Positions 1,796-54,251 of a stretch of 64,000 nucleotides of DNA are shown here, one piece after another. Under the pieces are notes generated by a model. It searched no databases, was not told the origin of the DNA, and worked only from the letters and a program-made list of their open reading frames with translations. The position numbers were made by a program, and so were the translations under genes. The DNA lies in contig NZ_CP048812.1 of NCBI RefSeq assembly GCF_010977575.1, positions 1,240,001-1,304,000 of the forward strand, written 5' to 3'. How positions within the stretch are numbered: position 1 is the stretch's first letter; each line of letters opens with the position of its first letter. Source of the DNA: Halomonas socia. GTDB taxonomy: Bacteria > Pseudomonadota > Gammaproteobacteria > Pseudomonadales > Halomonadaceae.

Positions 1796-2904
1796 GACGA
1801 CTGGGCCTCCGGCGACGCTGGCATGGGATTGTCGGCGGGCTGGGTGGCGGCATGCTCGCGGCGCAAGCGCCGTAACAGCTCCAGCTCGGACTGAAAGTCG
1901 ACGTAGTGCGGCAGCTTGAGGTGCGACACGAATCCAGACGCCTCGACGCTATCGGCATGCGCCAGTACGAACTCGGCCTGCTGGGCTGGCCCGATGATGG
2001 GTTCACCCAACTCCTCGGCCCGCAGGGCACGGTCCATCAGCGCCATGGCCATGGTCTTGCGCTCGTTGTGGCCGAAGGCCAGGCCGTAGCCGCGGGTGAA
2101 CTGAGGCGCCGCTTCCCGCGTGCCACCAAACTGGTTGATCATCTGGCACTCGCTGAGGGCGATCTCGCCGATGCAAACCGGCTCATCGCACTCGTCGACA
2201 ACGATCTCGACGTCCACATAGCCCTGGCGAATCTCGCCGGCGAACGGGTGGTTGCGCCCATAGCCGCGCTGGGTCGAGTAGCCCAGCGCCAGCAGATAGC
2301 CCTCATCGCCACGCGCCAGCATCTGCAGACGCGTGGCGCGATCGACCGGAAAGTCGGGCGGGTCGCGGGTAATGTCGAAGGGTTCGCTGCCATCGTCCTG
2401 CTCACGCTCCATCAGGCCCTCGGCATCCAGCAACTCGAGGATCTGCGGGCATGCCGCCCGCACCGCCTCGGCGCGCTCTGGCGCGGGCACCTCCCCGTCG
2501 GCCAGTTGCATGAAGTCCAGCAAACGATGGGTATAGTCATAGGTGGGACCCAGCACCTGACCGCCCGGAATATCCTTGTAGGCAGCACTGATGCGCCGCT
2601 CGATGCGCATCAGTGCGGTGTCCAGCGGCACACTCTCGGCCAGGCGCGGCAGCGTGGTGCGATAAGCCCGCAGCAAGAAGACGGCTTCTATCAGGTCGCC
2701 GCTTGCCTGCTTGAAGGCCAGGGCGGCCAGTTCGGGGTCATAGAGAGAGGCCTCTGCCATCACGCGATCCACCGCCAGGCGCAGCTGGCCCTGGACTTGA
2801 GGCACCGACAGCTCGGCCTGTTCACGCTCCCCGCGTCGGCGGTCGGCCAGCCAGCGGTGAGCATTGCCGATGGCCTGCTCGCCCCCTTTTACTGCGACAT
2901 ACAT
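1792..2904 (-). CDS. phnI: C-P lyase subunit PhnI (purine nucleosidase / ribosyltransferase component)
   Basis: A 370-residue core subunit that, with PhnG, PhnH and PhnL, is required to displace adenine from ATP by a phosphonate, forming the ribose 1-phosphonate triphosphate. The start MYVAVKGGEQAI is the family signature. The C-terminal half has the conserved FGHNERKTMAMALMDRAL block and the later EFVLAHADSVEASGF block seen throughout PhnI proteins. The ATG at 2904 is preceded by a strong AAGGAGG. The gene overlaps phnH by 16 bases and phnJ by four. Nothing looks damaged. The acidic, proline-rich tail after about residue 345 is likely disordered. Confidence 0.96.
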   Translation of the reverse strand: MYVAVKGGEQAIGNAHRWLADRRRGEREQAELSVPQVQGQLRLAVDRVMAEASLYDPELAALAFKQASGDLIEAVFLLRAYRTTLPRLAESVPLDTALMRIERRISAAYKDIPGGQVLGPTYDYTHRLLDFMQLADGEVPAPERAEAVRAACPQILELLDAEGLMEREQDDGSEPFDITRDPPDFPVDRATRLQMLARGDEGYLLALGYSTQRGYGRNHPFAGEIRQGYVDVEIVVDECDEPVCIGEIALSECQMINQFGGTREAAPQFTRGYGLAFGHNERKTMAMALMDRALRAEELGEPIIGPAQQAEFVLAHADSVEASGFVSHLKLPHYVDFQSELELLRRLRREHAATQPADNPMPASPEAQSS

Positions 2905-3511
2905 GCGCCTGCCTCCTTGGTTGATAGCGAGGTGATTCGCGTACTACGTGGAATAGCGGCAAGCCGTTCGCCGCAGGTGAGTAACGCATCCAACCCCAGT
3001 GGAAAACGGTTGCGATTGGCACTCAGGCGCGCCATCAATGGGCTCGCCTCACCAACGTCGAGCAGGCGCTGCGTGGCAATTCCGGGGCCGCTCAATTGCC
3101 AGCTCCCGTCATCATCAAGCTGCTGCAGAACCACCAGCAGGGTAGTGCTGCGATCCGGATAGGTCTCGCTCCCTTCGGCAAACTCGAGCGCCGAGTCCGC
3201 CAACACATCCGGCGTCACGATGGCAAAGTGGGCCTCCTCGGGGCATCGGTGATCTGGCCGCCGGTATGAAATGCCAAGGCCTCGAGCAGGCCTTGCGCCG
3301 CCAGGTCAGGTGCCACCCAAACGCGAGTGTCCAGGTCACACAAGGAGAGCAGAGTGGCCCACAGGGCGGGGCCGATGGCCGCCCCTGGCGGCGCTGCCGG
3401 CCCATCGCATGAATGCAGGGTGCCGGGTTCTGCCATGGCGGCTAACACGCGCCGGAAGTGGCGCTGAGCATCATGGACGGGGTCATCAAAGGCGCTCCAC
3501 TGCATGTTCAC
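2889..3511 (-). CDS. phnH: C-P lyase subunit PhnH, broken by a one-base frameshift in this sequence
   Basis: PhnH is a structural core subunit of C-P lyase (PhnG2H2I2J2). The N-terminal half (MNMQWSAFDDPVHDAQRHFR onward) is open from 3511 to a stop at 3215. The C-terminal half (HFAIVTPDVLADSALEF to LTCGERLAAIPRST) continues in the next frame to 2889. Adding one base to the GGGG run at 3240-3243 (plus strand) restores ...ITDAPEEAHFAIVT..., which lines up with the equivalent stretch of E. coli PhnH and gives 207 residues (E. coli 194). The start is GTG in a GTGA overlap with phnG, with an alternative ATG at 3505. Three other genes in this window share the same kind of lesion, so a sequencing error is more likely than a pseudogene. 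Confidence 0.88.
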
Positions 3512-3942
3512 TCCCCCCGCACCATGGTGAAAAAATCGACCCGGGTCGCCGCAGCGACCTCAGCCTGGGCCTCGTGCTCCTCAGCGAGCCTTGCCGCGAG
3601 TGGCGCGATCACCCCCTCCTCCAGGCTCGCTTCCCACTCGGCGTGTTGTGCGCAGGCATCCACCAGAGCGATCAGTTCGGCATGACGATGATCGCGGCCC
3701 TTGACCCAGCCATGGCCCAAGGTGCCATCCTCAAGCGCCACGCTGGCCCGGGTCAGGGTCATTTCGCCCAAATGAAAGGCCTTGCCAGTTCCCCCCATAC
3801 GGCCACGCACCATGGCCATCCCTGTCTCGGGACCTCTCACACAGCGGTAATGGGGTGCAATGTCGAGTCGACTCCAAGCCTCCTCCACACGGTCGCCAGG
3901 CGACAGCGCCAGAATGCGCTGTCGGCGTCGAGCATCAGTCAT
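3508..3942 (-). CDS. phnG: C-P lyase subunit PhnG
   Basis: A 144-residue small core subunit of C-P lyase, forming the PhnG2H2I2J2 complex and needed for the first ribosyl transfer step. Recognisable features are the N-terminal RRQRILALSP block, the central GETGMAMVRGRMGGTGKAF-like region with FHLGEMTLTRASV, and the HGWVKGRDHRHAELIALVDA block, all conserved in PhnG. The ATG at 3942 has GAGGTG just upstream. It begins 25 bases after phnF and overlaps the phnH start by a GTGA, so it is the first structural gene of the lyase part. Confidence 0.95.
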   Translation of the reverse strand: MTDARRRQRILALSPGDRVEEAWSRLDIAPHYRCVRGPETGMAMVRGRMGGTGKAFHLGEMTLTRASVALEDGTLGHGWVKGRDHRHAELIALVDACAQHAEWEASLEEGVIAPLAARLAEEHEAQAEVAAATRVDFFTMVRGE

Positions 3943-3967
3943 GGTGACACCTCGTCAACGTAAGGGA

Positions 3968-52399: not shown

Positions 52400-52419
52400 C
52401 TTTTCACGGCAGGAAGCGA

Positions 52420-52848
52420 TTATCCCTTGCCTGCCTTCTTGCGCAGCTGCTGGAGAGTTCTAAGCTGGGCCACCGCCTCGGCGAGCTCCGCCGCCGCGCG
52501 CGTATAGTCGAGCTCCGAGGACTTCTCGTTGAACGACTTGAGCGCCTGCTGGCGTGCCTCTTCGGCCGCCGCCTCATCGATGTCACCGGCACGGGTAGCC
52601 GCATCGGCGAGTATCGACACCACCTTGGGCTGGACCTCGAGGAAGCCGCCCGAGATGTAGAAGTTCTCCTCGGCGCCGCCCGCCAGCGTCACCCTGACCG
52701 GACCCGGTTGGAGCTCGGTCAGCAGCGGGGTGTGCCCGGGCAGAATGCCCAGGTCACCCATGATCCCGGCGGCGACCACCTGCTCGACCTCGCCGGAGAA
52801 CACCGCTTCCTCGGCGCTGACAATCTCGCACTTGAAGCTGTTCGCCAT
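52420..52848 (-). CDS. atpC: F0F1 ATP synthase subunit epsilon
   Basis: A 142-residue stalk subunit that regulates the F1 motor. The N-terminal beta-sandwich starts [20 protein letters not shown] and contains [16 protein letters not shown], and the C-terminal part is a helical hairpin. It is the last gene of atpIBEFHAGDC, 27 bases after atpD, and is followed by the operon terminator. Confidence 0.96.
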
Positions 52849-52875
52849 AGTGTTGTCCCCTCTGGGTGGACGGCC

Positions 52876-54251
52876 TTACTTCATCTGGTTGGCTTTCTCG
52901 ACGGCTTCGTCGATCGAACCGACCATGTAGAAGGCCTGTTCCGGCAGCTCGTCATACTCACCGTCGAGGATACCCTGGAAACCGCGGATGGTGTCCTTGA
53001 GCGACACGTACTTGCCAGGTGCCCCGGTGAACACCTCGGCGACGAAGAACGGCTGTGACAGGAAGCGCTGGATCTTACGCGCCCGCGACACGGCCAGCTT
53101 GTCCTCATCGGACAGCTCGTCCATGCCCAGGATGGCGATGATGTCCTTGAGCTCCTTGTAGCGCTGCAGCACGTTCTGCACGCCGCGGGCGGTGTCGTAG
53201 TGCTCCTGACCGACCACCAGCGGATCCAACTGACGCGAGGTGGAGTCGAGCGGATCGATGGCCGGGTAGATACCCAGCTCGGCGATGGAGCGCGCCAGTA
53301 CCACGGTAGCGTCGAGGTGCGAGAAGGTGGTCGCTGGTGACGGATCGGTCAAGTCATCCGCCGGTACGTAGACCGCCTGCACGGAAGTGATCGAGCCGGT
53401 CTTGGTCGAGGTGATGCGCTCCTGCAGCACACCCATCTCTTCGGCCAGCGTGGGCTGGTAGCCTACCGCCGAGGGCATGCGGCCAAGCAGTGCCGAAACC
53501 TCGGTACCTGCCAGGGTATAGCGATAGATGTTGTCGACGAACAGCAGCACGTCGCGGCCTTCATCGCGGAACTTCTCGGCGATGGTCAGGCCGGTCAGCG
53601 CCACCCGCAGGCGGTTGCCGGGGGTTCGTTCATCTGACCGTAGACCAGCGATACCTTGTCGATAACGTTGGACTCGGTCATCTCATGATAGAAGTCGTTA
53701 CCCTCGCGGGTACGCTCCCCGACACCGGCAAACACCGAGTAACCGCTGTGCTCGGTGGCGATGTTGCGGATCAGCTCCATCATGTTGACGGTCTTGCCCA
53801 CGCCGGCGCCGCCGAACAGGCCGACCTTGCCGCCCTTGGCGAACGGGCAGACCAGATCGATGACCTTGATGCCGGTCTCGAGCAGCTCGTTGGAAGCTGC
53901 CTGCTCGGCATAGGTCGGGGGCTTGCGGTGGATCGGCATGCGCTCCTGCTCACCGATCTCACCCGCCTCGTCGATCGGCTCGCCGAGCACGTTCATGATC
54001 CGTCCCAGCGTCTCCTTGCCCACCGGCACGGAGATGGCAGCGCCGGTGTTGGAAACGTCCAAGCCACGCTTGAGGCCCTCGGTGGAGCCCATGGCGATGG
54101 TGCGCACCACGCCGTCGCCCAGCTGCTGCTGGGTTTCGAGCACGGTGTCGGCGTTTTCGACCTTAAGCGCGTCGTAGACCTTGGGCACTGAGTCCCGCGG
54201 AAACTCTACGTCAATCACCGCGCCGATGATTTGTACGATACGTCCGCTCAT
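52876..54251 (-). CDS. atpD: F0F1 ATP synthase subunit beta, frameshifted in this sequence
   Basis: The catalytic subunit. The N-terminal part runs from [20 protein letters not shown] through the P-loop [15 protein letters not shown] to VYGQMNEPP and then shifts. The C-terminal part resumes [20 protein letters not shown] in another frame and continues normally through [13 protein letters not shown] to the end. One base added to the GGGGG run at 53620-53624 restores [14 protein letters not shown] exactly as in E. coli and gives 458 residues (E. coli 460). A broken atpD would disable oxidative phosphorylation, and nothing else in the gene is degraded, so a sequencing error is the best explanation. 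Confidence 0.95.

Follow-up and report, generated by a model that had tools for sequence, protein, structure and literature searches.

In a 64,000-nucleotide stretch of the Halomonas socia genome (the window; bases 1240001-1304000 of a single contig of 4,753,299 bases), the genes phnH, glmS, and atpD are divided between two reading frames at short C/G runs and ubiA has its conserved start displaced by one base in the same way. It is very probable that the assembly consensus under-counts some C/G runs by one base and that the cell carries phnH, ubiA, glmS, and atpD whole, and the frame breaks in the window and in the sampled part of the genome are most likely consensus errors, as judged from sequence comparison, on which the whole analysis is based. 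Consensus error is the best reading because the frames matching MutS and MutL are open, length differences at the longer G/C runs go in a single direction, and the relatives keep the long frames. Such errors would be sparse, affecting about 1% of the aligned G/C runs of four or more bases, rising with run length, and would occur throughout the sampled genome (1.264 of 4.753 Mb, composed of 864 kb and a further 400 kb). They would stem from uncertain G/C homopolymer lengths in single-molecule reads that had been left unpolished or under-polished with short reads.

Genes of the Window Interrupted at G/C Runs

The window was compared with four congeners (G001 to G004), the closest being G004, which aligns over most of it with 94-96% identity. 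The sequence bears out the runs that a preliminary description had placed in the four genes, namely a G4 in phnH, a C6 in each of ubiA and glmS, and a G5 in atpD (Table 1), and gap lists from the alignments with relatives put one missing base in each of the phnH, glmS, and atpD runs or at most 3 bases away, including the comparison of atpD with G002. The proposal that all four genes are one base short stands for phnH, glmS, and atpD, each of which occupies two frames at its run, and needs amending for ubiA, which is not truncated and retains an open frame.

The break in atpD falls inside the nucleotide-binding domain. The best-match atpD frame spans 429-561 amino acids in 57 of 57 relatives (in two of the rows the match includes one stop) compared with 268 in H. 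socia, and an intact second atpD was not found in the H. socia genome, where the other matches listed have 26-34% identity. The glmS break lies between the glutaminase and SIS domains. The best-match glmS frame has 607-675 amino acids in all 56 relatives with a match (one row carries an internal stop, and the incomplete assembly G038 has no match), compared with 544 from stop to stop here, and a search of the H. socia genome returned a single glmS match and no second gene. Loss of both glmS and atpD would be surprising in a growing aerobic bacterium.

The position of the glmS break, together with a downstream GTG that overlaps the upstream stop in the four bases GTGA, would suit a genuine two-gene enzyme in which a separate glutaminase and isomerase are translationally coupled through the overlap. 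This arrangement is exceedingly improbable: the four congeners have glmS as one frame of 615-646 amino acids, atpD and phnH are interrupted within domains by a lesion of this kind, and the G-rich stretch abuts the GTG without the usual ribosome-binding spacing as judged by eye. A frame-split glmS is also present in G010, a member of another genus, at a different place (G010:C37:5244-6382), and a separate contig of that assembly holds an intact second copy; a congener of G010, G033, likewise has two glmS copies.

The phnH gene is cut about half-way. It has one match in the H. socia genome and is found in 25 of 121 genomes, H. socia included; in the 24 relatives with a match the frame is 206-489 amino acids long (8 rows carry one internal stop) compared with 138 here. 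A phnH match is absent in G001-G003. The phosphonate (phn) genes as a whole, at window positions 1230-4673, form a variable stretch that is ~73% identical to G004 compared with ~95% elsewhere.

In ubiA the start used by G001-G004 is an ATG behind GGAG, 12 codons before a conserved LPDF motif. The corresponding ATG in H. socia is at 22830, where it lies 35 bases before LPDF and one base out of frame. No piece of the protein is lost, because the frame beginning at a non-conserved ATG covers nearly the whole UbiA model. A base is likely missing in ubiA too, and the visible effect of this would be a wrong start and not a lost gene.

If the genes were truly one base short, full proteins might be produced by ribosomal or transcriptional slippage on the G/C runs. 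The breaks do lie on runs where slipping is conceivable, and the GTGA overlap of the glmS pieces would allow coupling or a minus-one slip. The break is not conserved, however, as a long-frame copy of atpD, glmS, and phnH is present wherever a relative gives a match; the runs in the window are just 4-6 bases long and differ in sequence, and the atpD break lies inside the nucleotide-binding domain. Both the slippage explanation itself and the idea that some short runs are real, with frame-split housekeeping genes decoded by slippage on them, are very improbable, and we know of no such decoding habit in free-living high-GC bacteria, although no literature search was aimed at it. Programmed frameshift sites are shared within clusters of relatives, and a singleton is instead a sign of mutation or error (PMC3711429).

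Frame Splits in Other Parts of the Genome

Consensus error would be expected to reach beyond the four genes and to strike regardless of gene function, and frame splits are spread over the sampled sequence, not only over the window. In 864 kb of H. socia sequence tested against the complete relative G002 (594,270 bases aligned), 10 of 481 G002 proteins meet an internal frame split, every join fits the loss of one base, and in the aligned DNA the gap falls within a G/C run or next to it at all 10, which include glmS and atpD. The reverse test, with H. socia proteins placed on G002, gave at most 2 internal splits among 482 (Fisher p 0.006 with one reverse split, 0.02 with two). The cut defining a split as internal was set after the rows had been seen, with up to two reverse rows allowed. 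It reduced 14 rows in H. socia by four (1040199 and 1262147, near the N terminus; 1138296, with a 249-residue gap; and 1466373, with a 26-base length difference), and of the 10 reverse rows eight fall in the first 76 residues, one is at residue 81, and one is 29 residues from the end. Internal stops (25 here and 18 in the reverse test) stand outside the split count, as does the same test against G004, where the 27 rows from 279 tested in H. socia and the 14 from 282 in the reverse direction are mostly in-frame stops.

The G002 run is one base longer at the splits at 841076, 872463, 1153246, and 1700266, and the same is true of the G004 run at atpD. The breaks are spread from 841 kb to 1.9 Mb and affect glmS, atpD, holC, acetoacetate-CoA ligase, and others. 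Five breaks from the further 400 kb were chosen by eye, for long frames on both sides, from 37 rows of a codon-score scan of the H. socia sequence and were examined with Pfam and NCBIfam. A ring-hydroxylating beta subunit and HolC each have one Pfam model carried across the break, and acetoacetate-CoA ligase has one NCBIfam model across it; the evidence is weaker for a benzoylformate-decarboxylase-like thiamine pyrophosphate (TPP) enzyme and for a helicase whose domains read as DinG-like, in both of which complementary domains fall on the two sides of the break. By extrapolation from the 10 broken genes in the 594 kb of alignment, about 80 genes would be broken in the genome. The splits look denser in the window, with glmS and atpD in 64 kb and the other eight in 800 kb, and adding phnH gives three compared with 0.64 expected (p 0.03), a comparison that is biased as this feature was the reason for choosing the window and phnH is invisible in the G002 test.

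Run Lengths and Small Indels

The comparison of run lengths with close relatives, which the preliminary description had put forward as a check, finds G/C runs of four or more bases sometimes shorter in H. socia and never longer. With matched flanks, 16 of 1569 such runs are shorter than in G002 and 0 are longer, distributed by run length as 3/1321 at four bases, 10/224 at five, 2/22 at six, 0/1 at seven, and 1/1 at nine, so that the rate grows from 0.2% to 4.5% and 9% at lengths 4, 5, and 6 (small numbers). Compared with G004, 4 of 1052 are shorter and none longer (1/856, 1/168, and 1/27 at lengths 4, 5, and 6). A/T runs of four or more bases show no clear sign bias relative to G002, with 6 shorter and 4 longer. 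None of the G/C runs of at least five bases in H. socia is longer than its G002 counterpart, and therefore the asymmetry is not regression to the mean; two runs of 4 in H. socia are runs of 3 in G002. The preliminary claim that the errors share one sign and one sequence type is thus carried by all 10 clean internal splits, which fit minus one, and by all 16 length differences at G/C runs of four or more, and its interpretation as homopolymer deletion error is supported by the comparison with relatives. The description of the under-calling as systematic holds with the qualification that the affected runs are sparse.

Several observations weigh against consensus error as the source of these differences. 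Most five-base G/C runs agree with the relatives (214 of 224 with G002 and 167 of 168 with G004), and where the G002 run is three bases or shorter both signs occur, 10 runs being shorter here and 11 longer. A single repeated intergenic element accounts, through its copies, for three of the 16 short runs, and of the three that can be checked against G004 two are losses in H. socia and one (1231422) is a gain in G002; with the repeat counted once and the G002 change dropped, runs of at least five bases still number 10 shorter to 0 longer (p 0.002; most are not polarized). At five of the 10 splits (855528, 900136, glmS, 1358177, and 1527378) the relative has a different base within or beside the run, and therefore the lost letter there is not certain. 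Scanning the first 864 kb by codon score reveals no minus bias beyond that of the relatives, with 49 minus-like and 32 plus-like rows compared with 56 and 40 in two relatives (p 0.88). The further 400 kb yielded 38 minus-like and 7 plus-like rows (p 0.002), a result that is not relied on as a single break accounts for several rows and operon genes that overlap mimic minus one. Finally, the 17 isolated insertions or deletions (indels) of 1-2 bases that G004 and G002 together assign to H. socia comprise 10 of minus one, 3 of minus two, and 4 of plus one base; losses prevail and insertions exist, and some of these changes, above all outside genes, may be natural.

The presence of both signs among these indels (13 losses and 4 gains) speaks for real mutation in the sequenced clone, whether as ordinary pseudogenes or as changes that became fixed in a culture prone to slippage. 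The compared congeners lack the lesions, as expected of recent mutations, and phnH may be dispensable. That the deletions are real is nonetheless improbable. They affect glmS and atpD, neither of which has a second intact copy that could be found, and holC as well, and all 10 clean splits have one sign whereas the A/T runs show no clear bias. A mutator would be expected to give an excess of slippage in both directions, which the G/C runs of four or more bases, with 16 shortened and none lengthened, do not show, and the matches to PF00488 (MutS) and PF01119 (MutL) are in frames of 867 and 678 amino acids with no stops inside, an observation that concerns the frames only.

A sequence context for the breaks was also considered. 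Viewed by eye in the C orientation, 5 of 12 frame-breaking sites in the first 864 kb (the 10 splits with phnH and ubiA) are a C run followed by GAGG, a tetranucleotide that follows 1.6-2.1% of C4/C5 runs overall in the two genomes. In the further 400 kb, for which the idea had been noted beforehand, 2 of 32 scored GAGG runs are shifted compared with 36 of 1194 others (p 0.26). Pooling gives 7 of 98 shifted in H. socia and 0 of 107 in the two relatives together (p 0.005), with the discovery sample included in the pool. The independent stretch alone did not confirm the effect, and it was set aside as a hint only.

Consequences for Annotation

The probable artefact is ordinary and of an already known kind, and the biology itself is ordinary. 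If left uncorrected, annotation would list glmS, atpD, and holC as split genes or pseudogenes, together with what extrapolation puts at some tens of other genes, and starts such as that of ubiA would be misplaced. Should consensus error be the true explanation, it would be wrong to claim that H. socia has lost genes, that its GlmS is encoded by two genes, or that it lacks an ATP synthase subunit.

Feature Coordinates and Neighboring Differences

Table 1. Divided genes, the ubiA frame, and the associated runs (window positions, except in the last row)
Feature	Position	Strand	Basis
phnH C-terminal piece	2889-3218	-	109 amino acids; PF05845 positions 102-187/188; TIGR03292 positions 98-184
phnH N-terminal piece, other minus frame	3215-3505	-	three-frame reading against G004 phnH; open frame 3218-3559; start picked by eye
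G4/C4 run, phnH frame change	3240-3243	-	run confirmed; three-frame reading
ubiA open frame from non-conserved ATG	22802-23713	+	303 amino acids; above TIGR01474 cut-off; nearly whole UbiA model
C6 run between conserved ubiA start and UbiA frame	22845-22850	+	12 in-frame codons in four congeners, 35 bases here
glmS SIS-domain piece	44715-45890	-	391 amino acids from GTG; TIGR01135 positions 221-607
glmS glutaminase-domain piece	45887-46576	-	229 amino acids; TIGR01135 positions 1-217
C6/G6 run, glmS frame change	45892-45897	-	sequence and alignments to relatives
atpD C-terminal piece	52876-53604	-	242 amino acids; TIGR01039 positions 221-462
atpD N-terminal piece	53595-54251	-	218 amino acids; TIGR01039 positions 2-217
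G5/C5 run, atpD frame change	53620-53624	-	one shorter than G004 run
Five further apparently split genes outside the window	L251 7000-8606; L253 13545-14161; L256 8641-11660; L258 7331-9945; L258 13436-14152		three well supported, two by complementary domains

Two further single-base differences from the four congeners are present in the window. One base is lacking from the stretch that holds the G5 run 27580-27584 on the plus strand, which belongs to the leader immediately ahead of a gene for an ABC-transporter permease; this run is probably non-coding and outside the present finding, its effect being to shift the apparent start of the open frame. At window position 31582 one base is missing between two convergent stop codons, with no homopolymer, and the loss is probably harmless.

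Comparison with Known Systems

Two overlapping frames joined at a run are also the arrangement of programmed frameshifting and phase variation as represented in the GeneTack clusters (PMC3711429). Unlike those clusters, the genes here are housekeeping genes, the sites are varied, and the relatives keep the long frame.

Homopolymer indels that shift reading frames are described for nanopore assemblies in the Homopolish (PMC8011154) and Kastor (PMC12007338) reports, and Polypolish (PMC8812927) addresses the same class of indels in long-read assemblies. The error numbers given for nanopore-only and other long-read assemblies range from tens to thousands per assembly (PMC8011154, PMC12007338). In the main example of the Kastor report false deletions make up the majority of indels and follow runs of 4-5 most frequently, much as proposed for H. 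socia; A/T runs are affected about twice as often as G/C runs in that example, whereas the bias here is in G/C only (PMC12007338).

G/C homopolymers shortened by 1 bp are reported for PacBio-derived assemblies of high-GC bacteria (PMC11649196). The G/C shortening in H. socia matches the signature of those assemblies, with one base lost in G/C runs of ~4-10 and no corresponding A/T excess, a likeness that does not by itself identify the sequencing platform used here. The three ~2.57 Mb genomes in that report have 3, 5, and 8 differences (PMC11649196), and the breaks in H. socia are denser, at 10 broken genes in 594 kb aligned.

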